DNA of 64,000 bases from Zasmidium citrigriseum. Its lineage: Eukaryota; Ascomycota; Dothideomycetes; Mycosphaerellales; Mycosphaerellaceae. This document shows positions 13,346 through 32,373 of the stretch, piece after piece. The stretch is taken from contig NHNW01000051.1 in NCBI GenBank assembly GCA_002786025.1, positions 1 to 64,000 on the forward strand, written 5' to 3'. The number at the start of each line of letters is the position of its first letter. Position 1 is the first letter of the stretch. The notes beneath the pieces were generated by a model that worked only from the letters and a program-made list of their open reading frames with translations, did no database searches and had not been told where the DNA came from. A program made the position numbers and the translations under genes.

Positions 13346-15151
13346 TTAAAAACCTAAATCTCTAGCGTCCTTCTTACCCTTACTCCGTAGAGTTCTCCTT
13401 AGCTTAGCTAGCTCTTCGATAGGCTCTCTATCTACTCTAAATAACTATATATCCTTAGTAGTAGGCTTGCTAGTCTCCTTCTTACTACGCGGCTTCTTCG
13501 TAGGCGCCTTCTTTAGCGTCTTTCCCTTCTTCTAAGACGAAGGCTAGCTCTAGCTAGTACTAGCTAAAGTACTAGATCGAGTAGCTCTACTAGTCGAAAC
13601 GGGCTATAAGTTAGTCTCCTCGTTACCGAGATTATTATTATCCTTAGAGCTAGCTCTAGCTACTTAGGTAGAGGTAGCTAAGACGTTCTAAGCCTACTAC
13701 GAAGGTCTAGGCTTCTTAGGGTCTAGCTATAGCTCGAGTCCTTAGTAGTAACGCTAAACTCTATACTTAAAGAAGGGTAAGTCGGCCGTATTATTTAAGT
13801 ATAAGTTAGACTAGTCCCTTACCTACTAATTTCCCCTCGGCTCTTTAGCCTTACGTATCTCCTATAATATACTAGTATTAGATAAGAAGCTCTAGTATAG
13901 TAGTAACTCCTTAGCGGCGTACTCCTTAGCGGCGTAGAAATCGCCTATACCTACTATCTCCTCTTAGATTCGCTCTCTAGGAAGTACTTAGAAGCTCTTT
14001 TCTTCGATCTTAAAGCTATTATAGGCGTTAAGACGAGCGGTATCTCTACGAACAAGGCTAGTAAGTTCCTCGAAGAGTTCTCTAAAGACTAGTAAGTTTT
14101 CCTAGCGAATCTTAATAATTAGAGCGCGGCGAGCTTCGTCGTCTTTACTAAATAGCACTACTATATCCTTTATAGTTGTCTAATAGTCCTAGCTAGCTCT
14201 ATTAAGTAGAGCTCTCGTAATAGGTAGAAGCTTATAGTATAGGAACGACATAGGGTAGGCTAGTAGAGCGGTAGGCGAAGGAGAGTACTTAAGGTTATCT
14301 CTAGTAGGTAGGAAAGGCGGCGGAGATAGCGTAATATTAGCTTCTCGAACGTCTCTAACGTACTTTAGGCCTCTAAGTATATAGCTATTATTAATAGGTA
14401 GGAAGCGAGTAGTATACTAAACCTAAGAGGTATTCGGCGAGAAGTAGATATTAACGCGTAGCGTACGTGCTTTAAAGATACTAACGTTACTAAAGAGATC
14501 CCTAGTAAGCTTCTATAGAGGTACTCTATTTATAGTAGCCTATAGGTACGGCCTACTAAAGGGTATTTCCTTATAACGAGAGACTATTAGCTTTATAGTT
14601 ATAGCTAGATTCGCTCTTATTATGTTAGTTACGACTAGCTTATAAGTATCCTTAGACTAGCTATTTATAAATCTATTAACGACTATTAAAGGCTTATTAT
14701 CGAAGCTAGCTAGAGGTTTCGGAGTAGTCTTTCTAGCGCTAGTCTTCTAAGGCTTAACCGCTTCTACGCCCTAATTATTATAGCCTATGTAGATAACGAA
14801 ATCGCGAAGGGTATCCTCGCCCGTAGCCTTAATATCTACCTTAGTATACTAGAAGGTAATATCTATACGATAAGACGTATTATTCTTATATAGCTCGAAA
14901 GGTTATAGGTAGGCGATAACTCGGTAATTCTTACTCTTACTAAGGCAAACAGAAAGAATATAAAGCGCTAGATCCGCGGAGATAATCTAGCTAATTAGAC
15001 TATAATAGGAGTTTAAAATTACTAGCTCTAAGAAGAATCTAGGTACGTAAGACTATATCCGAGAAAGAAGAAGAGTATAAGACGAGATCTTAGCGCGTAT
15101 AAGTTCTAGCTAGTTTATAGTATTAATAACCGTAGTACTAGACTCGCCTAG
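13346..15151 (-). pseudogene. Element C large 3' accessory frame, C-terminal part (602 codons)
   Basis: I do not recognise the family. Minus-strand frame from 15151 to a stop at 13346-13348, exactly 602 codons. It joins in phase to 34971-32374 once element D and one CTAG duplication are removed. Readable segments include A-D-L-A-L-Y-I-L-S-V-C-L-S-K-S-K-N-Y and L-V-V-T-N-I-I-R-A-N-L-A-I-T. The C-terminus is very Lys-rich (K-K-G-K-T-L-K-K-A-P-T-K-K-P-R-S-K-K), suggesting nucleic-acid binding or nuclear targeting; that is inference. Stops are TAA/TAG at plausible Gln/Trp sites. Not RT, integrase or gag by any motif I can see. Confidence 0.7.
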
Positions 15152-15509
15152 TATAACCCGGCGCCTATAGACCAACCCACCTATAGTCGCTAAGTAGGTA
15201 ATAGAGCTAAAGAGGGGTTATAGGCGATAGATCTTAATAGAGGATGTAACATAGCTCTATTAGTAGGTTCGGATATATAGAGGTATTCGTATATATAGAG
15301 GTGCTTCCGAAGGAAGCTATAAAAGAAGAGAAGAAGTTTAGTGTATAGGATTTTACTATATCTATCTGTGTCGCATAATGTATAAGAAGCTAGTCGTATG
15401 TATATAAAGTAGGTGTCGTAATAATAATAAAGGTACTCGTAGCTCGGAGGTTAAAGGTAGGCGCTAGCAGCCTTAGTATTTGCTATAGAAGCTAGCTAGC
15501 TAGCCTATA
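15152..15509 (-). repeat. Element D 3' LTR (left)
   Basis: 358 bp. Compared base by base with 32012-32369 I count 22 differences, all C/T or G/A transitions and no gaps, so the two LTRs were probably identical before RIP. Internal landmarks: AGACCAACCCACCTATAG and TCGCATAATGTA. Confidence 0.95.
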
Positions 15510-15523
15510 TTCCCTCCCTTGCT
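15510..15523 (-). other. Element D polypurine tract
   Basis: On the minus strand AAGGGAGGGAA abuts the TATAGGC start of the 3' LTR. Confidence 0.75.
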
Positions 15524-15633
15524 ATAAGTCTAACCCGTAGACTCACACCTTTATGCCTAGAAATCAAACGCAATCTATTATAGAACAAAGGAAAACATTA
15601 GTTAGAAGCCTTAACCTATAGTACTATCTATAG

Positions 15634-15660
15634 CGTTTATACCCTAGCGGGGTACGAACG
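15634..15660. repeat. D palindrome, copy 1 (after ORF4)
   Basis: CGTTTATACCCT, a short centre, then GGGGTACGAACG; the left arm carries two RIP changes. It lies ten bases beyond the ORF4 stop on the sense strand. Confidence 0.88.
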
Positions 15661-15669
15661 ATAAAGAGC

Positions 15670-18600
15670 TTACTCTAGTACATTCCCGTCCTTATCTATA
15701 GCTACACCGTCGTCGTTAATAAAATTACCTTCTAAGATAGATAACTCCTCGCCTTCTAGGAGTTTAGGAATAGGTACCTCGAAAGTAGACGGCAACCTAC
15801 TAAAGTCCCTATTATTATTAAAGTAGGAGTTATTGCCGAAGGCCTTCTTCTCTATTCCCTAAACGACCGCCCACTTCTTATGGAATTCGTTCGCAGCCGT
15901 AGTACAATACTTACGGAGCTAGATTAACTACCTAGAGTTAGCGTTGTTCGGTCTAGCGTTATAGTACTCCTACAACATGCGGCATATCTTATACTAGTTA
16001 TTAATAACTATCGGATCGGACTACCGACGCTAAGTAATTAACGTATCCCTAATAGGCTAAGTTGAATCTATCTTAATCGTAGCCGGAAAGTAGAAGGGGA
16101 TCTTGCCGAAGATGTTAGCGAATCTAGAAGGTATTGCCTTTAGAGCTACGAGATCGCGGTAAGACGCATTTAGATTAGTCTAGCTACTACTACTAGGAAT
16201 CTTAAGTGCTTCTCCCTAGGGGTCTACCTTAACGAGCTAGGGGAATAAGTTGATTCGCTCCTTAGTTTGCTTTTAGGCACCGTATAGTAAAGAAGGCATA
16301 GAAATTCGAACATCGAGCTTGCCGTATAGAATAGGCTTCTAGTTAGTGTCGTACTTCTTAGCGTCTTTAGGTGTCTACATCTTCTTGTCGATAGTTTCGA
16401 TCTTAGCTTTAGATTGTAGTCCTCGGCGGTCCTTAAGTAACTTTACTTAAGGATCCTACTTCTTACGCTTATGTATACCAGGAATAATAATAGTGTAGTT
16501 ACTAGCATCTTCGGCTAGAAGAGTAAGCGAGCCCTATATTATATTCTACCTACCCTTAGGCGTGTATATACACTCGATGTTAAAGTCTAAGTAGCGGAAG
16601 GCTTAAGCTCCTATATTACTCTCCTTAGCACTACTAGCCCTATGTTAATCCTTAATGTAGTAGGAGTATAATATAAGGGTAGGGCAAGAGTCCGGGCGTA
16701 GTAGTATATAGAGGAGGTAGTAGATAGGGTTAGTCCTTATTAACTACTAAATTAATCCGTAAACTATAGTACGTCCCTATCCTAGGTTGTGCTTCTCTCG
16801 AATTAAGCGCTAGTACTATCGATATATCCGTACCTTATCTATAGTAACGTTATAGATTATATTCCTAGCTAAGGCTAGATTGTTTCTAGGGTTCTTAGCG
16901 TAGAAGGGACTCTCCTACTAGTTAAAGAGGCCTTTTAAGGTAAGGTTACCGTTCTTCTCCTAGTTGTCCTTGCTTAGTTCGCCTACTACATACGATATAG
17001 CTAGGGCTAAGTTTAGAAAAGGAATCTTCTAGCTCGTAGGTATGTTGTGTGTTTAGGCTGTAAAGCGATAGGGACCGAGGGTATTAGAAGGGACGTTAGG
17101 GCGGTAAAGTATATTAAACTAGTTAGGGTTCTAGCGGCGGAACCTATTAAGATTGTCTTTAGTAGTAACTATAGCTCTAACCTTACTTGTTAAAGTAGCG
17201 TAGTTACCTTATCGGTTTAGTATTCCTAGGATTCTACTTATAAATAGCCGCAAGTAATCGTAGTAGAGCGGGCTCGCGTATTAGCGCTTGCCGTTCTCGT
17301 TATAATCCTTAAGATACTACCGGACTTAATTATTAGTAAACTTCGGCTTATTCTTATTAGTATAATCAATCTAAGCGATTAGGGTAGTATCTACGAATCC
17401 TAGGCACTTGTTATAGATCTAAGACTTCTTATTATTAGGTAGTAATATACCGCTATAATTGGATGCTATAGGGGAGTTACCGAAGGTGCTAGAGGCAGGA
17501 CGAGAGAAGTTACTAGAGCTAGATCGGGGAAGGTTTCCTAATCTAATATAAGGAAGACCGGAGTTAGTTCGGCTATAGCTACTAGAGCGAGGAGGAGTAG
17601 GTAATTATTACGTAGGCGTAACTTAGCTAGAAGTAGGGTTACTCTTCGGACGGTTAGGCAAGGTATTAGATACAGAGCGCTAGTAACTAGGCCGAGGAGG
17701 ATTCTAACCCTATCCTAAGTTCAAAGGCGGTAGCTTCGTATAAAGGCGTAGGTTTCTAGTAGGACCTTATTAAGGTAGAGCGGCTTTCTCCTAGATCGAA
17801 GGAGGAGTAGGGTTAGTATTAGTTCGAGGACGGCCGCTAGTAGGAGGAGGTCCTCGCTACTTACTCTAATTTAAGGAGCTAGCATTAGGTGCGGGTGTCT
17901 ATAACTCTTCCTAGATACGAGGATCGACTAGGTAAAGGAACTAATCTTCTAAGTATAGTCCGAGGTTGTTCTTCGTTAGCTAGTCTTACACTTCCGCTAA
18001 GTTGAGATCGATAGCATTAATAAGATGCTTCTTCTTACTATCGTCGATAGTATCTAGATTAGTCTACTCGACCCGATAGTTATTACTTAGGCTACCCTTA
18101 CCTTTACGATCTATAAGTCTCTAAATAAAGGCCTTACTAATGCGAGAAGCGACTACCTTCCAATCCTTATAACTAAGGATAAAGGTAGTAAATTCCTTCT
18201 ATCGTTAAGGTAGTACGCTAATGTCGAGGAAGAACTATATAAAGTAACGCTTAAGGGGCAAAGATAGCTAGGAAGCTATAGCCTTTCTTAATACTATATA
18301 CCGATTACGAGCCTTTTCTCCCTATGTTAATGCTTTGTCTAGCGCCTTATATTTGCGACGATTAGGCGCTATATTAGTAGCTTTCTTAACACGGTCTACT
18401 ATTTCTAGTATACTAATAGACCGCCCCTCGATAAAGTAGTTAGTACATACGTAGATAAAGTTAGTAAAGTTGGTCTTGTTCTCGTCGCTTAGAGTCTTAA
18501 GGAAGTCGCTAAGCTAATCCAAGTTCTTGTTAAGCACGCTTAGGGAGTCGTTAGTAACTAAGGGGAATTAGCGGTCGCGGAAGTCTCTAATATAGTCTAT

Positions 18601-20214
18601 AGACCTAAGGAGTTACGATACCTTAAGCTCTCCTAGCTTTACGAGACTGTTAGCTAGATTAGAGCTAGTTAGTGCGGCGGGCATTAGCGCTCTGCCTCTA
18701 GAGCGCGCTATAGTATCGGAGTAGGTAGAAAGTAATAGGGTTGTCGGTAGGTATTCGGTAAAGTCGGTAAGGGTAGAACTATTAATAGAGGAAAAGCTCG
18801 AAGAAGTCGGAAGGTTCGAGGTACTAAAGGCGGTAGTATTGTCGGTGTTATTAAAGTTAAGAGGTTGGCGGAACAGAAGGGGGCTTAAGTACCTATAGCG
18901 GTAGCTAGCTTTGCGGGCTAAGCCGCTATAGTTATACGCGGCATCTTTAGCAAACTATAAATATTTGCGCTTCTAAATTACTCGTGCAGGTTCTACGTGT
19001 TCTAATACCTCGTAACTAGCTAGCTATACTATAATACGTACTATATATAGTAGTTGATCGGATAGCGGTATATCGAGAGCTAGTATCGTAAATCCGGAAG
19101 CGAAGGGGTCTAGTTCGGTTTTTAAGAGAGATAGGCGATAGTAGCATCGTCCTCGTATATATACGTAGCTTATAGAGTCGCATAGGTAGCCGGGTGGGGC
19201 GGTTAGGCGTTCGTACCCTAGCGGGGTACGATCGTGAAAGTAACATCTATAGGCTAATTAGTTAACTACGGGCGTTCTAATTTAGCCCGAAATAGGTACC
19301 CTATTAAGCTCCTTCCCTACAATCCTCTAAACACTCCTAGTATATACCTATTTATAGCGGGAGTACCTATAGGGTTAAGTAGGGACAAGAACTTAGATCT
19401 AATTATCTAGAATAGCGCTAAACTCTAGGCGTTATTATCGGAGAGGAGGATCTAAGCTAGCTACTATTCGGAACGTAGCCCTCTATCGGTAGTCTAGTAC
19501 CTAAAATAGCACTAATTATAGGTCGGGTAAATTAATAAAGAGTATCCTACGCCTATCGATTTGTCGAATACGCGAGCTAGTTCGGATAATAAAGGGTAGG
19601 CTAGTAGCGGTTCTAGGAGTTCGTCTAGTATAGTCGTTAGTATGTCCGAGCCGATAGATTAAGCGGCGAGAATCTCGAGATCTAGGGGTAGAGTATCTTC
19701 GCCGATCCTCCGGCTCCTATTATAGATCTACTATCTAACGCCTCTATATATTACCTATAGTAGTATACTTAGTAAGTATCGTCTCCTATAGCTCGATCTC
19801 TTCTTATAGTAGCTATAGTTCGGCGTCGATCTTATCGGTATTAAAGTATAAGTGTCTATTATTATCGCGCTAATCCCTAGCGCCTCTCTATATAAGCCGG
19901 ATAATAGGCGTTCGAGGGCGACGCCGGGCGAGGCGTAGTTCGACTACATCGATTCGGTATCGTTCTCTAAAGTCCGTAGGAATCGGTTAAGCTAACTACT
20001 AGGTAGCTTCTTCTTCCTAAGCTTGAATATAGCGTAGCTAAGTCCGGTTACGTTCCAAGCATTCAATTAGATCCTTAATTTCGCGTACTCGCTGCCGGCG
20101 AGTTTCCTATACTAAAAGAGAGGTAGACGGCAACCGGAGGATATAGTTTCGTTCTATCTAGAGCTCTAGAGATTTAGTCTCGATAACTAATATTAATTTC
20201 CCGAATGCGGCTAT
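15670..20214 (-). pseudogene. Element D ORF4: about 1515-codon accessory protein, function unknown
   Basis: Frame from ATA (20214, from ATG; M-A-A-F-G-K-L-I-L) to TAA at 15670-15672. Residues about 1-310 form a charged coiled-coil domain homologous to the start of ORF3 (E-T-K-S-L-E-L-stop-I-E-R-N-Y-I-L-R-L-P; later G-A-R-D-stop-R-D-N-N-R and E-L-stop-L-L-stop-E-E-I-E-L). The frame then reads through a D palindrome at 19208-19234. The rest (about 1180 residues) has a helical first half, a Pro/Ser/Thr-rich linker near 17.5-17.9 kb and a C-terminal domain with few interruptions (for example E-F-H-K-K-W-A-V-V) ending G-V-A-I-D-K-D-G-N-V-L-E. Surviving TGG and CAA codons support the frame. I recognise no family. 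Confidence 0.72.
19208..19234. repeat. D palindrome, copy 2 (inside ORF4, domain boundary)
   Basis: CGTTCGTACCCTAGCGGGGTACGATCG, followed by TGAAAGTAAC as at other copies. It separates the ORF3-like N-terminal domain from the long second domain and is read in the ORF4 frame as D-R-T-P-L-G-Y-E-R-L. Confidence 0.88.
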
Positions 20215-20322
20215 AGCGAAAGGTATAGTCTACATCGTTTAGATATAAGTAGCGCGTATATAGAAAGAACACGCCTTCTAGCCGAGCGGGGTTATTATAG
20301 ATCGTCTAGGGATTCGTTAATT

Positions 20323-20350
20323 ACGTTCGCACCCCGGTAGGGTATAAATT
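20323..20350. repeat. D palindrome, copy 3 (between ORF3 and ORF4)
   Basis: ACGTTCGCACCCC, centre GGT, AGGGTATAAATT (right arm RIP-altered). It lies about 110 bases upstream of the ORF4 start in the sense direction. Confidence 0.8.
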
Positions 20351-23153
20351 ATAGAAGGTACTAAGCTACCCTAGCGACATAGCGCTATTACGGAAGTTGC
20401 ATTTAGGAATCGATAGTACACTTCGGAGGATCCCCGACAAAGGTAGGGAACTTATCTCGTCTAGGTAGGGAACCGATAAAGCTAGACTAGAGTAGAAAGG
20501 GGGAGGATATAATATAATCTACCCGTATTACATAGATAACGGGAATACAAATAGATATAACAAAGGAAAGGAGGAGAAGGTAGAAGTAAACTATATTACT
20601 AGTAGACTCGAAGTTAGAGGCTCGATACGAGTAGCAAACAGCTACTACTATATGTCCCGTCTATACTCCTATCCTTAATTCCTAGGCCTAAAGTTACCTA
20701 TGCCTCCCTAAGCTCTAAGCGTTAGAGTGCCTATCCCGGGCTAGGCGGATAACCTTATAGTAGCAACTTAGCGTTACTTTATTATATTAGTAGATGTAAA
20801 CATACTAGACTAGCTATAGGCCTATTATACGATCAACTTCCTTACGACGACGCTATAGATTAGTATAGCGACGAGAGAGATTAGCTTTATACTCCGTCTA
20901 GTTTATAACTATACTACGGCGGACCCTCTAGCGAACATCCGTCTACAGCTAGCTAGGGAACGAGTAGGTACTAGGCGCTAGTATTGCTAAAGGTAGGGTA
21001 CCGAGATAGAAGATAGACCGACGACTATCGAAAGCGCGAGGATTAGGCTAGGTGCGGCGGCGTTCTAGATCTTACTACATACTAAGAGTCTAGCGTCCTT
21101 AGAAGTCGCTATTCGCGCGATACTTATTAATAATACAGGCTTGTAGATAAGCATTAGAATAACCCGCTTAAAGGGACAGGTAGATCTCGTTAAGGTTAAA
21201 GGCGGGGTTAGGTTCTCTATTTCTCTAGTTCTATACGCCTATACGTAGTAGGCGGACAACGGAGATATTTAGCCGAGTAGTAAGGATGTAGGGCTCGACT
21301 ATATCGGCGTAATACTACTATCTCTCGGTAGTAGAGGGTAGGCGATACTAGCGACTAAGAAAGGTCTACTACTACTCGTTTATTATCCGATTGCTATCTT
21401 AAGTCTTATCGTATAGTAGATCGTCTAGCTTCTTATCTATATCTATTAGTAGGCGGCAGGTACGAGAAATGTCGCCGATATAGCGTAAGGTAGCTTCTAT
21501 ATAGGTAAGATTTCCGCGGCTAGTATAAGCGTTCGAGTATAGATACTCTATCTCTTAACGGAGCTTAGTATACTCGAGGCGGACGACTTCTTTTAGAGCG
21601 CGGATGTCGCTTATGTTAGCGGTGTCGGCGTAGGCGTTCCTCGTGCGATAGGCGTTTAGCTTTTAATAAAGCTCTCGCGGCTTTAGAGGAAGAAGGCTTA
21701 GATCCGTCGCAAAAGGTGCGAGTCGTAGTACGACGCAGAGAAGGTTAATATTCGAGTAGCGGCGGGAAGTTATGCTAGCGACAGCCGCTAGGCCCAATTA
21801 GGAAATTACTACATATAATCTATTAGAAGCCTTTAGTTCCGGACCTAGTTACTCTAGTAACGACTTTAGATGTACCGACAATCTACGAGTATTACCTAAT
21901 AGCGTAGAGGCGGCGTAGGTACCGAGTAGCGGCGGTTCTAACCTTTTATACTCCAGCGGGGTGCGATCGTAAAAGTAACTAGCTATTCTTAATATTACTT
22001 CTCTTATAGGTGCGAGACGTAGGCAATAGATATAGGAGTAGCGATTAAGAGGAGGGATAAAGGTTTTTATACTAAAGAGCTCTAAACTAGAAGGTTCGTA
22101 GAGAAGAAGTAGCTACTACTACAAGCTAACTCCTAATCCTTCCGTCTAATTCTCTCTAGCTAAACCCCTTTTCTATTCCTAACATACTCCTTTTAATGCC
22201 ACTTACTTAAGACGTAATCTTATCGTACAATACTATTCTTATAGGCGCTTAAGGCGGCGGCGATTAGCCTATACGGCACGACTCTAATCCTTAGCAACCC
22301 GATTGTTCTCGGGCCTCTCTTATCGAAGTAGGCTATCTAGACTAGTACGGCTACGGCGAGTATTCCTTCCTTACATATTAAGCCGACGAACTTAGGCATT
22401 AATCTAAGTAGCTTACTAGTTCGGAGGGTTTAGGAATAGTCTATTAACGCTATCGATGTTAATAGTAATAAAGTTAGTATTAATAGGAAGCTATAGACTA
22501 TAAGTAGTACCGTTAGTACGGCTAGCGGTGTCGTTGCGATAGCCGAAACGATAGATGGAGTAGCGAGAGTCGTAGTAGCTGGGAGGGCGATAGGTATAGC
22601 GGTTCTCGAGTTCTCGCTATAGATTAACATCCTAGCGAAGGCGGGTATTTCCTATAATAGTATACTCGTTAAGGATGCGCTCCTATAGAGTAACATCTCG
22701 TTGAAGTAAATCTAGATTAGTATAGATCTCGGCGATATTAAAGCGAGAACCTCGATCGTTATCGCGCTATCCTCTAGCGCCTACGTCTAGAAGGCGGAAG
22801 ATCTAAATCTATAAACGGGCGGCTCGTAGTCTCGGCTCTGCCACCCGGATTATATAATCGTTAGTAATAGCGGTTGGGACTACTATCCTTCCTAGGTAAG
22901 CGGCGAGGTAGCTATAGACAAAGGCGTCTATAATGTCCGACATTCTGTTCTCTTCGCCGACTAGCGTAGAGCGTATCTAATCCCGGTCCGACTCTAGATG
23001 TTTAATAAGGTTCTCGATATTACGGACTCGCTATCGGCGAGCTTCTTACTCTTAACCGCTATTTATAGGTAGGCTAAGGATATAGTTACGCTCTAGTTAG
23101 AGCTCTTTAGACTTAGTTTCCAAAACTAACTCGATAGCCTCGAGATCCGACAT
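20351..23153 (-). pseudogene. Element D ORF3: accessory protein, up to about 930 codons, function unknown
   Basis: Starts at an intact ATG (23153-23151): M-S-D-L-E-A-I-E-L-V-L-E-T-K-S-K-E-L. The first about 345 codons are homologous to the start of ORF4 (both have E-R-N-Y-I-L-x-L-P, then R-R-x-R-V-R, G-A-R-x-stop-R-D-N-x-R and L-L-x-R/E, E-I/R-I-L). The frame runs through the palindrome at 21944-21969 into a second domain with strong coiled-coil character (A-L-K-E-V-V-R-L-E-Y-T-K-L-R-stop-E-I-E-Y-L-Y; R-L-L-I-D-I-D-K-K-L-D-D-L-L). Towards the end there is one hydrophobic stretch near 20.55 kb that could span a membrane. The exact stop is uncertain. No family recognised. Confidence 0.68.
21944..21969. 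repeat. D palindrome, copy 4 (inside ORF3, domain boundary)
   Basis: TTTTATACTCCAGCGGGGTGCGATCG followed by TAAAAGTAAC. Read in the ORF3 frame as D-R-T-P-L-E-Y-K-R-L, the same reading as copy 2 in ORF4. Confidence 0.8.
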
Positions 23154-23497
23154 CTTAGCGGGTGTATAGAATAGCTTAATAGCGTAGAGTTCGGAAGTAG
23201 TAGCTAGTATAACGATATTCTTTACCGACAGGCGGAGGCGCAGATTAAGTTGTCGCTTGAAAGTATCGGTTGTCGCGCGTAGTAGAAGGTAGGCTAAGTT
23301 TGCAAGGAATATAGGGAGTTATATATAGTTGGCGCTATTCCTAATACGGAAGTTACGGCTTATAACTACCTTAGAGGACCGCTTTATATTCCTTACTCCT
23401 TCCCTTTACTTATTGCTATAGTCGCAATTCTAGGAGTACTCGCGGACGGCTAGTATCTATCTATTGCCGGGATTATAGCCGGTTCTCGGCCGTTAGG

Positions 23498-23524
23498 CAT
23501 TCGTACCCCGCTAGGGTATAAACG
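23498..23524. repeat. D palindrome, copy 5 (between pol and ORF3)
   Basis: CATTCGTACCCCGCTAGGGTATAAACG, followed by TAAAAGTAC. About 345 bases upstream of the ORF3 ATG in the sense direction and 460 bases beyond the pol stop. Confidence 0.85.
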
Positions 23525-23986
23525 TAAAAGTACGGGAATTGTTAGTATTAGGATTAACTAGGGGCATGTAGAGGTCTAGCATATAATAAAGATGTCGTAG
23601 ATAGCGATAAAAGGCGTATACGTATAGCCTATCGTCTATCTATAAGGAGTATATCGAGGAAGATAAAGATAGCGACTAGGACTACGAGCTAGCGCGGACG
23701 CGAAAGCCTATATCGTATAAGAGCACCCCGTCCAAGACAGCCGCTCTATCTACCCTAAAGACTCTACATTTCTCGAAGACGAAGTATCCGTAGTGCTCTA
23801 CTTGGAGGCAACTACTTCAAATCTAGCAACTTCGGCTTATACGCGATCTAGGGAGTAGTAGGTTTCTAAAAGCATATAGGCCTTAGTTATAAGGCCGATA
23901 TAACAAATAGAGTGAACAAGTAAGAGTTTTCGAAGAAAATCCAGCTAGTCGTACCTCTAGTACCCTTCCCTTTCTTTAGAGCTTAG

Positions 23987-26900
23987 CTACGGGAGGCTTA
24001 ACCGTAGATAAGCGATACCTAGCTTAGCAAATTGTAGGTCTTCTTCCTTAAGATTATTATTATCTTCCGGTTTATCTTTATCTTCGGCCTTAAATAGTCG
24101 CGGCTAATTAGCTTTAGCGACATTAGGGGTAGGATCGTTAACATCCTCTTCTATCGTACGGAATAGGTAGATAACCTTCTTAAGAAGATAGTACGCGAAG
24201 GTCCTATCTATTTTAGTACTATCTAGTTCCTCTAGTAGATAGGAGTATAGCCGTTCTAGTTTCGAGAAGCTAGTTATGTCTCTTTCTCTAATACGGAAGG
24301 GTCCTTTCTATCGGAAGGATAACTTGTCGGATTTGTTGTACTTATCTTCGGCACGATATATAAGAACTATATCGCTAGGCTAAAATTCCTCGAAGCTAAC
24401 GTTATTGCGACTATCGTAGTACTACTTTGTAGTAGCCTTTATCCGCTTCTAGCGAGCCTAGAGTTCCTTAAGTAATCCTTCTATTCGCTAAAGTTGTTTA
24501 GCGCGATACTATAGAAGTGTTCCGTAGTTACGAACTACACCCTAATCTCAGATAGTAGTAGTAGGGTACTCGACTTCGATAGGCAGTACCGCTTTATACC
24601 CGAATATAATAGTATAGGGAGATTAGCTAGTTCGACTATTAGTTGTCGTTCGATCCGCCTAGGTAATAGTAGGAACCTATTTCCTCCATCTAGTTAGGGT
24701 ACTATTTATAAGTTTAGTAAGGGCATCTAGCAATAGGCGATGTCTAACTTCAACTTAGGCATTCGAATACGGATTGTATAGGGAAATACGAACTCTCTTA
24801 ATACCTAGGCTAGTAAGTAGACGAGCTACTTTACTAGCGTGCTACTTCGCATTATTAAGAATAATCTCTAGAGAGGTTCCATATCGATAGAAGACATCGG
24901 CATATAGCTAGTCGGCGATAATCCGGGCTATTACTTTCTTAGAAGAGTAGTTAATATACTTAACTTCGATCCACCTACTAAGTACCTCCCTTACTACGAG
25001 TAGACACCTATAGGTATTAATATAGACAGGATCTATAGCCTACCTTTCGCTAACGAAATTCTACATAGTTGGGCGGAGTTTAGCTAGCCGAGGGTGTCTA
25101 TTCCGGTAGTTATATAGACTATATAATTTAAAATACTTAGAGTAAGATAGATATAGTCCTTCCTACTAGTACCTCCGCTAGATTATATTAAACATAATGT
25201 TAGTACTACGGTAGCTATTCTTCTCGTAGAAGGTATGTAAGATCTAGTCCTATATATAGGGTTAGTCTATAATACGCTATAATAGAGTATACTTATAGGG
25301 TTGCTAGAACAAGATACCGCCTTAGACTACGAACTTCCTTAACTATAATACTAGTATACGGTATCGCTAGCGTATTATTCCTCGCGGGCGGCGACGTTTA
25401 GCTGTAATTTAGGCTAGCTGTTAGGAAGTCTTATTATAATACTCTAGGTAATTAAGAATACTAGTATCCTCCTACGGAGGATTAGTTCGCTATACTAGGT
25501 ACGTAAGGTAGAAGTCGTCGTCGATTATAGCCTTAACATCCTCTTCCTCTACTAGCTCCTCGTAATCTTATTCCGTAGCTAGCTTACGAGACAGGCTATT
25601 AGGAGCAGAATGTTTAGTCCTAGGTACATGTCGAACTTCGAAGGTAAACAGTCGAATCTAAGCAATCTATCTAGTAATAGCTACATTCGGTAGATCCGAT
25701 AAAGCCTTATTAAGCTAATATATTAGCGTATTAGCATCTACTTCTAAGATAAAGTAGACACTAAACAACTATAGCTTTAGTTTCCGTAATGCTTTTAGTA
25801 CTCTAAGGCATTCGCGTTTTCTAGTATTATACTTCTACTTAGGAGGACTAAAAAGGCTAGATTCGAACTAGACTAGATGTCGAACTTTAGAGTTCTTCGG
25901 GTCGCATTGTATAAGGACTACTCTAAAACCTTCGCTAGAAGCATTAACTATAAGCACGATACCTCCTCCTTCCTTAGAGTAGTCGATTAACTTTAAAGCT
26001 AGAGCTTCGACGAGGAGACGGGCAATAGTATCCTTAGTATCCTAATGCTTCTATTCCTAGACAAACTCCGTATCCTTCTATAGGAGTTAGAAGAGCGGCT
26101 TTCCTCGAATAGCTAGTTTAGGTACCTAGATCCGGAAGTATATAACTAGTCCTATCTAGATCCTAACATCCTTCTAGTAGGTAGGGGTAGGCTATTCTAA
26201 TATCTTTCGTACTCGTACTACATTAGGGTAGCGACTAAACTTATTAGTTACATAGCCTATAATCTTAACCTTCTTATAAAGAAGTTAGAGCTTCTTCCTA
26301 GCTATAGTATAACCGGCACGTTCTAGATCCGCAAGGACTTTATCGATTACTATAATGTATTTAACTACAAATCTCCGTAGGCTAGGCTCAATATATTCCC
26401 TATTATAATTAGTCTTCGGGCCCTTAACGCTAATGTCGTCTAGAAAAGGCCGAGCTCGATAGGAGATATAGGCTATTAGTACTTAAGTAATAGCTCTTAC
26501 GAACTAAGTAACTAAGTTTGTAGCTCCTTACGGGAGAGTAGTCTATCGGAACAATCCAAGTAGTATGTCGAAAGCCGTAATGTCTCTATAGGATTTATAT
26601 AGAGTAACCTAATTATATTTAGAGAAGATGTCGATTAAGCTCGCTATCTTGTACCTAGTAAAGTCTTCCGAGAAGCTATTAGTGTTAGGGGGCAAGTTAG
26701 CATCCCGAATAATAACCTTATTAATCTTAATAGTAGTATTAATAAGCCGATAGGTCCTCTCCGGACTAGTGGACTTCTTCCTAACTAGGAAGTAGGGGTT
26801 CCGATAGCTCGAGTAGCTAGACTCGATCGTTTGCGCTTTAAGCCTCTCGCGAATTATGCCTTTAACTACAGACCGAAGTAATAGATTTAAACGGAAGGGC

Positions 26901-27611
26901 GGGTGTTACTATAGCGTGTATAGTATCGTCCGGATATATTATAGCCTAATTACCTCTTCTCGAATTCGTCCCAAATACTCGAAGCTATAGGCAATAGCTA
27001 CCTCTCTATTATAGAGCATCTCGTAGATTATTTCTAGTTCTAGAGGGAGTAAGTCTATACCGATCTCGATAGCATCTAGACGTTCCTAGGTTAGCTAGCT
27101 TCCTTTAGGAATATTAGAAAACTTCTTAATTAGATATTTCCTATTAAACTTGCTAGTTCCTAGGGGAAGTGTCGCTTTATACGCTAGACAATCGTTACGC
27201 TAGGTAAGGGATCCACCGGGTTTCGAGCCGTTAGTTCTCGAACTATCTTCCTTAATAGGGCGAACTTTCTTAGCTTTCCGTTTATATATAGTATACACAT
27301 CGGCGGTTATACTAACGGGCGGGCGTATATAGGCTTGTCTCCTTAACCTTCGAGCCGCTTTGTTAATAGTTGTAGTAAGGAGAATGCCCTTAACATTATT
27401 ATTATCCTAATCCTCGATATAGAGAAATCTAGCTTTAGCGATGTTAGGTAGTAATTCGGCGGCGGTAGTAACGTTAGGGTAAGAATTTTCAACTCCCCTC
27501 CCTTTTTTAAATACCGCGAACGTGGATGCTAAGGATCTAGAAGGTAGAGAGTCTAACCTAGGAGCGTAGTAGTTAATTCCTACGTTCGTACCCTAGTAGG
27601 GTACGAACGTT
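23987..27611 (-). pseudogene. Element D pol: reverse transcriptase-RNase H-integrase, lightly RIP-damaged
   Basis: One minus-strand frame to TAG at 23987-23989. RT is unusually readable: V-R-K-K-S-T-S-P-E-R-T-Y-R-L-I-N near 26.75 kb, S-Y-R-D-I-T-A-F-D near 26.58 kb, and the catalytic box P-F-L-D-D-I-S-V-K-G-P-K-T at about 26412-26450, with both Asp intact. The sequence after it (L-R-R-F-V-V-K-Y, D-K-V-L-A-D-L-E-R-A-G-Y) is typical of fungal Ty3/gypsy elements. RNase H follows (about 26.0-25.6 kb), then integrase, with R-I-I-A-D near 24.9 kb and a GPY/F end K-L-S-F-R-stop-K-G-P-F-R-I-R-E at 24290-24330. Scattered TAG/TAA inactivate it. The frame differs from gag-protease and opens near the palindrome at 27582. 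Confidence 0.9.
27582..27610. repeat. D palindrome, copy 6 (between gag-PR and pol), perfect
   Basis: A 13-base arm ACGTTCGTACCCT, centre AGT, and a perfect inverse arm: a stem of 13 pairs with a 3-base loop if transcribed. It lies where the gag-protease frame ends and the pol frame begins. Confidence 0.92.
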
Positions 27612-30453
27612 AAGAACCTAAGTTCTTCGCTAATCTTAGGGCGCGAGCCCTTTAGAGGATCCTAAGATCCTTAGGAATCCGAAGATTTATTACAAATACT
27701 ATCCTAATAGATAGTATATGTTCCTACTAAGATAGGGGAGACTAGCGTAGGTATCGATTCCCCTATAATTTTAGGGTTAGCCTAGGACTACGAAGGATAT
27801 CGTCTGTCCGCTTACATCTAGTTATAGTAGCTTAGATTCCCGTAAAGTAAACGGAGTTCCCTCGCCTATCGGTAATAGTCCCCTCCCATATACTATTATT
27901 ATAGTTAACGCTAGTTAGCTAGACCTTCCGGCACTAGGGGCGTCCTAGGATAAATAGTATCGATAGGGAAACCGAGACCAAGAAATCCTAGAAGAAGGTA
28001 ATACTATGTACTATAATCTTTAGGGCGCGAGTAACTCTACTAAACTAGTAAGGTCCGCTAGCGCCGCTTATGTTAATGTTTACATTACCTATAATAGGGA
28101 GTCCGAGCTAGGAAGCTAGTTTATAGCTTATAATGCAACCCTTAGATCCTTCGTCAATTAAAGCGCGAACTATATGCTCGATATAGCTAACGGTAGCTAT
28201 TACCTAGGGGCTGGGAGCTAAAACTAAATCCGTAGTAACACTAGAGAGATTAATTTTCGCGCTATCTTTATATAGCTTACTAGCCTCGGGCGGTCTGGAG
28301 AATCTTATATCTTCTTACGGAAGTTGAACGGCTATAGACACACGCTAGTTAGGTAAATTAACTTGCACTATAGCGCTAGTCTACGGTGTCTCCCTATACT
28401 TCTTAAGCTCGTCTATAAATTCGGAGTTATTAAGGATTCTCTACGACTAGTACTTCGCGAAGGTAGCGTTGTAAGTTATTATATTACTAATGGTGACATT
28501 AAGCGGGGCATTTATTACCTGTTTGCTCTAGAACAACTTGTCGTTTCCCCCGCTATAGGCGCGGACGTAATATAGAAATGCCTTACTCTTAGGCTTACCT
28601 CGGCGAGCCGCAACTAGTACGTTAAGAGGTACGGTATCCTTAAACTTATTACCCCTATCTATTATGGATTCCTTACGCTAGGAATGGTTCTAGTCCATAG
28701 TCTAAGTTTGTGTCTAAGAATCCTTAGTTATATTCTTAACCCTAGGCTAAAGATCCGAGCGGCGAAGTTAGTTATAGGATTCCGGAAGGTTAGCGATAGG
28801 GGTGTTATTAGCACGAAGTTGCCGAGTTTTAGCTACTAAGGACTATTTACGTTCCTTGTTCTTAAGAATTCTAGTAGGTGCAAATCGTGTCTTCGAAGTT
28901 ATGCTTACCTTCTCCTACGAGCGGGTAGTAGCATTAGAGTAATAGTCTCTATCTAGTAAGTACTTAGGAGTAATATAGAAGGATCCATGTTTATACTAAT
29001 CGAAGGCGTCCGTAGCTTCTTCGATAATCTTAGAGCGTTGTACGTACTAGAAGGCAGGATTATATAGTTCCTTAGATTCGCTAACCCCAGCGAAGTAGAC
29101 CTTAGCCGACAATAACGTAGGTAGCGCTATAGGAGTTAAAGTGGAGTTTCTAGTAATAGAGCTATTATTACTTCTCCATTTAGCTAGAAACTTATTAGCA
29201 TTAGTTCCCGTAAAGGCAATCTTCTCGGTAGGCTATTCTATTCGAATAGCTAGTAGTATACTATACAACTTTAGCTTAGTTCTATCCTATCGCCATGTTA
29301 TAGACTTCGGGTTGTAGCTACCCTTAGGTCCTAAGTACTACTTGTTGTCTAGTAGATAGTAGTAACTGGCATTAAGGAACATCTTAAACATCTTATAGGT
29401 AGCTCTAGTATAACTAGGCTTACTGTAGTTCTAGTACTTGTCGGCTATAGTAGGACCTATTAGAGGAGCTTTCCTCTACTATATAGTAAAGACTCTAGTA
29501 TTATACCTACTGGAGATATTTCTTATCTAATCCGTAGCTTAAGGGTTAAGTAGTATTACTCTACTTAGGTATTAGCGTTGCATTATAGCGATTTCTATAC
29601 GATAAAGTCGATCGGTAAGTAAGCTAATCTTAGCATTATAAGAAGCCGGAGTAACATTCGAAATATAAGACAAGCTAATATCTAACACAGGTTGTCTATC
29701 TTCGACAGACTTCTACAAAGTCCTTATTTATATAGTCGTCTCCTTCTAGGCAAGGTTGTACCCTTCATTCCCTTTAATCAGGCGTATAGCTTCGTCGAAG
29801 ATCTTGCCGAACTCCCGGAAGCTATATTCGCGCAAGGGGTATAGGTTGAACTTCTAATATAGCTTTCGCTACAACTAATTAGGAAGTCCTTAGAGGAACA
29901 GTCGGGTACGAGAGTTGTCTTCCATGTCTACCTTCTTAATTTTCTTACTCGTAGTAATAAACTAGCGGCAGTAGCTAGACAAGTTATCTCCTATAGAACG
30001 ATTAGTACCGGCAAGTTGTTCTAGATACTAGCGGGTTCTAAGGAGCATAAAGGCATCGGTCTAGGCAAATTCGTAAGCAACCTCAATACGGAACTTTTTA
30101 TAATCCCCATCTTCGTACCCTAGAACTCGAGTAACACGCGGGCGAGTTAGTAGATTGGTGTTTAGTCGGAAGCGAGACAACTTCTTAACATTAGTTAAGT
30201 TAGGGTTGTACTCGGCAATTAAATTGTCGAAACGATCGATAAAGGTAGAGACGTTCTTCCCATCGAAGAGAGGATTCTTACTCGAGCCTAGTATAGGCAT
30301 TTTAGGCCGCAAGTTAGGGAGAACTAAAGCTAGTTGCTAGATAATAGCCTAAGGATCGGCCTACTAAGTAGCGCTAGTAGAAGACCTAGCAGCCTAGCTA
30401 CTTCCTCCGCTATTACTATTACTAGCGTTGGCGTTAGTAACAGGAGTAGCCAT
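27611..30453 (-). pseudogene. Element D gag-protease, lightly RIP-damaged
   Basis: Starts at an intact ATG (30453-30451), M-A-T-P-V-T-N-A-N-A-S. The stretch 30312-30061 is still open for 83 codons and contains N-P-L-F-D-G-K-N-V-S-T-F-I-D-R-F, a gag core signature of fungal Ty3/gypsy elements (F.GKNV..F...F). The same frame runs on to a retroviral-type aspartic protease near 28.0-28.2 kb with A-L-I-D-E-G-S-K-G-C-I-I-S, the I-D-E-G-S form also found in element C, and I-L-G-R-P further on. No typical zinc knuckle was identified. The frame runs up to the palindrome at 27582 and stops just after it. Gag would form the particle; the protease would cleave the polyprotein. Confidence 0.87.
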
Positions 30454-30837
30454 CTAAGAACGATAAGATCTTCCTCGGGTAAGAAGTAGGGGACGCGGGC
30501 CGGGAACTTTAGAAGTAGTACTTATACTCGCTCGAGTTAGTAACTATTCTAAGCTAGGAGTCTTAACTTCTTCAGAGCTAGAGGACCTATCGGCAGTAGA
30601 TACCTTTAGCTTGGAAGGACTAAGATCTACTAGCAAGTTACGAAACTTAGGGTTAGCGTTAGGATCTTCCTATCTTAAAGGTTAATTAATAGGAGACTCT
30701 TCTCCCGACCTAGACTCTTGTAGCGGCGAGCTGCTTATAAGAGGTGACTTGGATCTACTTAAACTACACCCTCTAGTAAAGTATGTAGTAGAAGGCAGTT
30801 AGTCCTAGGGGCTAGTAGTTAGAATCCTAGTAGTAGA

Positions 30838-30865
30838 TTGTTCGTACCCCGGCGGGGTATAAAAG
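30838..30865. repeat. D palindrome, copy 7 (leader, upstream of gag)
   Basis: TTGTTCGTACCCCGGCGGGGTATAAAAG. About 385 bases upstream of the gag ATG in the sense direction. Confidence 0.88.
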
Positions 30866-31989
30866 TAAGATATAAGGATTTGTTACTTGTTTAGTAACAC
30901 GAGGGGTACAAATTGGACACGAAAGCGTCCTTATCAATTAAAACAGACAGAAACAATGTTTTTGTAAGGGTTTTACAACTTGGGTAATAATAAGACATAG
31001 CCTTAAGCCGAGTATAGCAATAGGGTGTAGATATAGATAGGTAGATATAAATTAAACAGTTTAAACAGCAAGTGTGTAATAGAAAGCAAGGATACAGATA
31101 TGTGTAGTACAAAGTAATGTGTAAGGGCAGTACTAGTTATAGTACGGGTGTAGTGCTAGTAACGAGTTCGCTATTACTAGAAGTAAGAGGTACTAATTAA
31201 TAGTAATTCTTCTTAGCGAGGTCCGGAGGTAAGGCTACATATTAATGCTTCCTCGCCCAAGTGCATAGGCCTAATAGCCGTTGCCATGTTAGGTAGCTGC
31301 GATTCAGTTAGCGGCTTCGATCTAGACTAACAAACCTTATTCTAGGGATCGTAGCCTTACGAGTAGTTACCCCTTTCTAAGCTCCTGCCTAGAACGACTC
31401 TTCTAAATGCCTTATCCTATAGCGGTTTCGAATCTTAATAGTCCGAAGGTAGTTAAGTCGGGGCGTAATCTCGGCTATCTATAGATAGCATCTAATTTTA
31501 ATAAAGGAGAGCGTATTGCTAAGGGCAGTTGTCGTGTTCGCGAGAAGCGGTTGTTAGGGTTTCCGCTATGCCTACTTCCGCCGAGTAGTAAAGCATAGCG
31601 CTACCCGTCCGATTTCTAGAGGTTCCGAGTGTTCGTATAGTATATGTTCGAGCTTCGCCTATTAGATACGTCCACCTAATAATATAATCTCTAGTTTTCC
31701 GTGTGTGCCTATTTCGTTTAACTAACTACAGACTCGAGCCTATTTCTGTAGCCGAACTGTTGTATCTGTTGTTCTATAGTGCTAGGTTGTTCGTACCGAA
31801 GCTCCTATATGCCGAATGTCGTATGTATCGTGTTTCTTATATTCTTATATCTTTCCTTAATATAGCCACGCTAGCGTTGCTCTTGTAAATGCTCTTGCTT
31901 ATATCGAATCTGTCGGAGTGCGGTTTCGCGAGGGCGCATTATCGAATGCTCGAAGGTTAGAAGTCGGAAGAAGACGGGTATGTCTTCTA
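30866..31989 (-). other. Element D 5' leader
   Basis: About 1.1 kb between the primer site and the first palindrome. It keeps many CA and TG dinucleotides, especially at 30890-31130 (for example TACAAATTGGACACG), so RIP has been weak here. On the sense strand it is rich in ACAA/CAAG/ACAG repeats near 31700-31850, common in retrotransposon leaders. No gene seen; the plus-strand run at 31703-31888 has no support. Confidence 0.6.
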
Positions 31990-32001
31990 CCCTCGTACTA
32001 A
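31990..32001 (-). other. Element D primer-binding site
   Basis: Sense TTAGTACGAGGG (TTGGTACGAGGG before RIP), ten bases inside the 5' LTR. The TGG start pairs with a tRNA 3' CCA end. The same sequence, with the preceding TAGTAG, is present next to the 5' LTR of element C. The tRNA cannot be named from here. Confidence 0.7.
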
Positions 32002-32011
32002 CTACTAAAAA

Positions 32012-32369
32012 TATAACCTAGCGCCTATAGACCAACCCACCTATAGTCGCTAAGTAGGTAATAGAGCTAAAGAGGGGTTACAGGCGATAGATCTTAATAG
32101 AGGATGTAACATAGCTCTATTAGTAGGTTCGGATGTGCGGAGGTATTCGTATATATAGAGGTACTTCCGAAGGAAGCTATAAAAGAAGAGAAGAAGTTTA
32201 GTGTATAGGATTTTACTATATCTATCTATGTCGCATAATGTACAAGAAGCTAGTCGTATGTATGTAAAGTAGGTATCGTAATAATAATAAAGGTACTCGT
32301 AGCTTAGAGGTTAAAGGTAGGCGCTAGCAGCCTCGGCATTTGCCGCAGAAGCCAGCTAGCTAGCCCATA
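32012..32369 (-). repeat. Element D 5' LTR (right), with duplication CTAG at 32370-32373
   Basis: 358 bp. It retains more TG/CA than the left copy (for example GGATGTGCGG against GGATATATAG; CATTTGCCGCAGAAGCC against TATTTGCTATAGAAGCT), so it is the less mutated of the pair. Confidence 0.95.
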
Positions 32370-32373
32370 CTAG

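Follow-up and report, generated by a model that had tools for sequence, protein, structure and literature searches.

Sireviruses, plant retrotransposons of the Ty1/copia group, carry repeated motifs (RMs), 12 of 13 with a CGG-CCG core, which occur in 8–32 copies in the LTRs and before ENV (PMC2829016). As described in the available part of that source, the RMs resemble the palindromes reported here in being element-specific, present in many near-identical copies per element and variable at the centre; they likewise lie next to an extra gene in non-coding DNA and stay conserved where the rest of the element diverges. The statement of the first-pass annotation that the palindromes have no described equivalent is therefore too strong. 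They nevertheless differ from the RMs in that the arms in the present element (element D) are of the CACCCC/GGGGTG type instead of having a CGG-CCG core, and in that each spacer of D holds a single copy, every gene (gag and pol among them) having one alongside, with none found in the LTRs of D in the stretch analysed. Among fungal LTR elements, GalEa (Ty1/copia) also contains a conserved, hairpin-forming palindrome, but as a single site immediately following the 5' LTR, at the primer position, whereas those of D are repeated at gene boundaries (PMC5445492, in the part available). The stop/restart systems of victoriviruses and influenza B segment 7, as outlined in partial accounts, likewise have, close to a stop codon, a signal that allows a downstream gene to be expressed; there, however, stop and start codons or genes overlap, whereas the gaps in D are ~200–300 nt, and D has a palindrome also after the last gene. 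In the open-licence PMC literature, represented mostly by its listings, we found no palindrome at the gene boundaries of a fungal LTR element; a further paper considered, PMC10309623, has no bearing on the motif.

The stretch of DNA analysed, hereafter the window, comprises the first 64 kb of contig C96 and contains element D, an LTR retrotransposon of 17.2 kb (15152–32369) with a 4-bp target duplication. D reads on the minus strand, because RT and RNase H lie on this strand between two of the palindromes and a purine tract lies inside the left LTR. Like the fungal Ty3/gypsy elements (Metaviridae), D has LTRs, a PPT, a putative gag-PR, and a pol with RT followed by RNase H; unlike them, it is 17.2 kb long, has a separate pol that follows a spacer of ~300 nt, and holds four extra genes, three of them paralogous, with a palindrome in each spacer. 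The order in the sense direction is LTR, P7, gag-PR, P6, pol, P5, X1, P4, Y, P3, X2, P2, Z, P1, LTR, and the features are as follows, in window coordinates.

15152..15509, minus strand: 3' LTR (left), with the target-site duplication CTAG at 15148–15151 and a purine tract (PPT in the minus-strand reading) just inside
15636..15658, no strand: palindrome P1, between gene Z and the 3' LTR
15670..19033, minus strand: gene Z, ~1,120 aa, called from its codon-position pattern, start not fixed
19210..19232, no strand: palindrome P2, between X2 and Z
19420..20320 (approximate), minus strand: gene X2, a paralog of X1 with a codon pattern
20326..20348, no strand: palindrome P3, between Y and X2
20600..21820 (approximate), minus strand: gene Y, a distant paralog of X1 and X2
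21945..21967, no strand: palindrome P4, between X1 and Y, absent in the subfamily fam2
22241..23372 (approximate), minus strand: gene X1, called from codon pattern and paralogy
23500..23522, no strand: palindrome P5, between pol and X1
23900..27450, minus strand: pol, with RT at 26252–26725 and RNase H at 25703–26050, codon pattern
27585..27607, no strand: palindrome P6, between gag-PR and pol, with a hairpin of variable sequence a few nt upstream in the sense direction
27760..30453, minus strand: gag-PR, codon pattern, 5' end may extend towards P7
30841..30863, no strand: palindrome P7, in the leader before gag
30903..30912, minus strand: extra half-site TTTGTACCCC with neighbouring hairpins, in the leader
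32012..32369, minus strand: 5' LTR (right), with the target-site duplication CTAG at 32370–32373

The LTRs are 358 bp long, 300 nt of the left one being 95% identical to the right, and a second copy, on contig C73, has ATAG flanks at both ends (a target-site duplication). Element D is heavily RIPped, the mark of RIP being a TA/AT ratio of ~2 in the window together with a near-absence of open frames (only one of at least 100 aa between 12000 and 34000); on this basis, a filamentous ascomycete is very probably the host. Because RIP converts CpA into TpA in either strand, both arms of a palindrome change alike and covariation is imitated; only transversions are thus informative on arm pairing. 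Since RIP also creates false stops and destroys start codons, the gene limits are approximate, and the gene calls rest on codon-position substitutions between copies and on protein comparison. In gag, pol, X1, X2, and Z, the transversions between copies are concentrated at a single codon position, a pattern that is weaker in Y, whereas around the palindromes they spread over all codon positions. From this codon pattern and the paralogy of X1, Y, and X2, ORF3 and ORF4 of the first-pass annotation resolve into four genes, and D is predicted to carry six genes (gag-PR, pol, X1, Y, X2, and Z), not four. Its proposal that the palindromes mark gene boundaries stands, whereas the internal domain boundaries that it placed within ORF3 and ORF4 become ordinary boundaries between genes.

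The search for relatives of pol found 65 sequences, 35 of which span 83% or more of the query, with 32–36% identity. Integrase was not detected in the mutated pol copy of the window; PF00665 (integrase) is found in all of the nine best pol relatives, which cover 87–91% of the query. The protease-like stretch of gag-PR (28030–28170) matches Pfam Asp_protease_2 with an E value of 0.0011, below the cut-off of that family, and no Pfam match to a Gag domain was obtained in the long frame upstream of pol. Three neighbouring paralogs lie in this single retrotransposon (19420–23372, minus strand): X1 shares 40% protein identity with X2 over 293 aa and 24% with Y over 265 aa (E 4e-14), Y is 65% identical to the gene after pol on contig C43, and the Pfam comparison of X1, Y, and X2 gave no match. 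For Z no family was found, the best Pfam hit being DUF3659 (E 0.2, below the cut-off); its in-frame stop (15670–15672, reading ...NVLE and then the stop) lies 11 nt before P1 in the sense direction, and 12 nt before it in the fam2 copy on contig C6. Near the start of pol (~27408–27530, minus strand), a purine tract with a CCGCGTTCGCGG hairpin is conserved, possibly as a central PPT or as part of the pol start. CpA/TpG is less depleted in the region comprising the 5' end of gag and the leader (30500–32000) than elsewhere in the RIPped D, and the leader contains, besides the extra palindrome half-site, a conserved hairpin GGACGC-TTTC-GTGTCC.

The palindrome is a GC-rich dyad with arms TTCGTACCCC/GGGGTACGAA and a 3-base centre, present in seven copies in the window, whose 23-bp cores start at the first coordinates given for P1–P7 above; all seven places named by the first-pass annotation were confirmed in the sequence. 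Its description of one copy as a perfect 13-bp stem is true of that at 27585, with a 3-base loop, whereas the TAAAAGTA-like tail that it attached to the motif is clear at 19210, 21945, and 23500 but not at the other four copies, and does not persist in the subfamily alignments made. The sequence TTCGTACCCCNNNGGGGTACGAA is matched with at most three mismatches by five of the seven copies and by nothing in 100 dinucleotide shuffles. A RIP-tolerant scan of the 64 kb (at most seven mismatches, at most two of these other than C>T or G>A) returns exactly the seven palindromes, bearing out the remark that none occurs elsewhere in the window, and none in the LTRs of the window element. The less mutated genomic copies approximate TTC(G/A)CACCCC...GGGGTG(C/T)GAA.

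Searches of the whole genome (148 contigs, 44.4 Mb) found at least 126 sites by pattern and four more by place, the 126 distinct sites coming from three pattern searches (98 and 9 sites listed in two of them, and 19 new ones among the 50 listed of 73 in the third), in each of which the reversed control patterns gave no match. An element anchor or an inter-palindrome distance is matched by 116 of the 126, some distances of the subfamily fam3 being derived from the same sites, with sequence support on contigs C43, C20, C120, C130, and C131. A further six fit the sum of two inter-palindrome distances, two lie within ~100 bp of the expected place, and the last two match fam3 flanks. Palindromes are common in general (75 in the window with 10-nt arms and at most one mismatch), which speaks for a separate dispersed repeat or a chance structure, the former being the finding that the first-pass annotation had set against its own reading. 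However, all 126 pattern-found sites are attributed to the superfamily at the thresholds used, with none outside it, shuffled sequence yields no match, and an exact match to the degenerate pattern occurs in three prokaryote-contig stretches and in no viral contig; at these thresholds the dispersed-repeat or chance reading is effectively refuted and has only the slightest probability. Another palindrome of the window, the AT-rich ATATACTAAAGCTYRATATAGTATAT at 1859, 8828, 11288, and 53873, has near-identical near flanks at the four places and thus belongs to another repeated element.

The relatives of D in the same genome keep nearly all palindromes at the same boundaries, contrary to the refuting condition set by the first-pass annotation (relatives that lack them or have them at random positions). 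Over three subfamilies, D, fam2, and fam3, with six, five, and five genes, respectively, a palindrome is present at 18 of 19 boundaries: 7/7 in D, 5/6 in fam2 (contigs C64, C6, and others; LTR and pol ~88% identical to D), and 6/6 in fam3 (C94, C131, C73, C19, C43, C120, and others). Of the other D copies, that on C90 has all seven, that on C75 has six before the contig ends, and that on C73 has six by the RIP-tolerant scan and P2 by pattern search. Genomic matches to the P7 region number 29 including the window, all with the palindrome (L053 included), and those to the P1 region number 15, the window copy counted. The one vacant boundary is in fam2, where no palindrome was seen between X1 and the next paralog. 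In fam3, C131 and C94 have a degenerate Y/X site; on C73, C120, and C43 this site falls below the search threshold, as does the X/Z site on C94; all four fam3 places predicted from spacing hold a mutated palindrome with 4–6 changes, at most two of them not of RIP type. The fam3 gene after pol is Y-type by its sequence on C43, and the identities of the other two accessory genes are inferred from spacing. Between D and fam2 (C64, L030–L033, against window 15149–28757), LTR and pol are ~88% identical and the accessory genes ~60–75%, a mosaic that suggests recombination between subfamilies. Beside the C64 element, two superfamily LTR copies lie head to head (L030, 2879–3574).

The palindromes sit in fast-evolving spacers, each with a conserved core. 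When the window was compared with up to four other copies, transversions were found in 3 of 481 columns of the 23-bp cores and in 108 of 3692 columns at 13–100 nt away (one-sided Fisher p = 7e-4, the copies not being independent), so that the dyad is conserved against its flanking sequence; the transversion rate drops again beyond ~100–130 nt, where the genes begin. At the P5 and X/Z spacers, alignment between the subfamilies barely extends past the palindrome; at P1, D and fam2 have a stretch beside the PPT in common as well (the fam3 rows being misaligned there), and the P6 spacer contains further conserved blocks. The palindrome is thus a conserved, element-specific candidate cis-acting signal, one in nearly every non-coding spacer of a putatively polycistronic Ty3/gypsy-type superfamily, the gag leader and the region following the last gene being among them. 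It is probably under selection and, given that same-genome relatives keep nearly all copies, probably has a job.

Our leading reading, held tentatively, is that the palindrome would act at the RNA level, folding into a hairpin of 10–14 bp at every gene boundary. A host or element factor would recognise the fixed arm sequence of the hairpin, and the downstream genes of one long LTR-driven transcript would thereby be expressed or released, by RNA processing or by termination and re-entry of ribosomes; we infer both the RNA step and its purpose. The conservation of the core within fast-evolving spacers, the retention of the palindromes at the boundaries in subfamilies differing in gene content, and the mutated palindromes at all four places predicted from spacing favour this reading, as do the transcribed position of the spacers and the finding of no copy in the LTRs of the window. 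The hairpin of the palindrome itself is formed in 10 of 14 single-sequence folds; it is missing from the lowest-energy structure in the other four (D P7, P4, and P3, and fam2 P7, all RIPped sequences), the 3' arm of P7 pairing instead with the upstream half-site, which counts against the hairpin. The hairpin just upstream of P6 stays paired although its bases differ among D, fam2, and fam3, including three double-transversion pairs (by eye), whereas the RNAalifold covariation term at P6 is only -0.53, both partners having changed in 7 of 33 pairs, in an automatic alignment that breaks this upstream hairpin in fam2 and fam3. Against the reading are also the lack of an Rfam match at E up to 1, the absence of a gene after P1, the position of P7 before the first gene, where simple re-initiation would not need it, and the absence of a fam2 copy between two genes.

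The RNA hairpin is only slightly ahead of a DNA dyad, in which a dimeric host or element-encoded protein would bind the integrated palindromes and either drive internal promoters or mark a chromatin boundary between one gene and the next, and which we consider nearly as plausible. In the arms, the letters themselves are conserved and not just the ability to pair; the arms are also nearly symmetric, and both features favour protein binding over a hairpin. The same holds for the arm variants, which lack strand bias: at arm position 4, sites with an A.C mismatch in the sense RNA (P7, P5, and P3) are as common as those with G.U (P4, P1, and fam2 P2'). Clear RIP-proof symmetric differences, sought as compensatory changes, are found only at the pairs just outside the arms, other symmetric changes being confounded by RIP. 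The first such pair is T-A at all five site classes of fam2 (the next being A-T at four of five), G-C at all six classes of fam3 (one of two P5 copies, that of C94, having A/C), and G-C at four of seven classes of D (P1, P2, P5, and P6), as if a single recognition specificity had shifted between subfamilies. The palindromes of Sireviruses offer a precedent: in the part of the source available, binding factors and an internal promoter are put forward for them without being demonstrated (PMC2829016). In contrast, no copy was found in the LTRs of the window, where promoter sites would be expected, and RNA-like hairpins adjoin P6 and P7. The centre, 3 nt in D and fam3, is 2 nt at P6 and P7 of fam2, a variation inside one subfamily that is easier to accommodate in a loop than in a rigid dimer site on DNA.

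We regard it as rather improbable that the palindromes are repeated packaging or dimerisation signals along the genomic RNA, confined to spacers because coding sequence cannot hold them. One near-identical dyad in each spacer, as well as ahead of the first gene and behind the last, would suit such signals, and dispersed packaging signals are known in RNA viruses (from partial accounts), but the strict regularity of one per spacer exceeds what packaging needs. Still less probable are recombination joints or duplication scars, that is, seams of gene-module swap or duplication with no present function. X1, Y, and X2 are paralogous, and the sequence upstream of P2, P4, and P5 is, by eye, common to the three; some copies may thus have spread by gene duplication; one end of the D/fam2 similarity lies 93 nt from P1. 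The other two alignment ends (near 23943 and 28757) are, however, away from the palindromes, and the core is conserved while the spacers decay.

Taken as a whole, the comparison of copies points to a real, conserved, element-specific signal, for whose mechanism several readings compete. To our knowledge, the expression of genes downstream of pol in LTR elements with extra genes is poorly understood. The same question has been raised for the ENV gene of Sireviruses in the part of the source available (PMC2829016). In the present superfamily, nearly all genes of a six-gene element are accompanied by one signal, which follows the number of genes in the three subfamilies; the question of downstream-gene expression thereby becomes directly testable. 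Selection is moreover readable through RIP damage when transversions only are counted, RIP preserving and even imitating dyad symmetry. An extension of the RNA hairpin reading, which we consider unlikely, is that the superfamily behaves as an operon, in which one LTR transcript would carry five or six genes with a copy of one recognition hairpin on either side of each, read by a factor of co-evolving specificity; if true, this would be a case of eukaryotic polycistronic expression by RNA punctuation.
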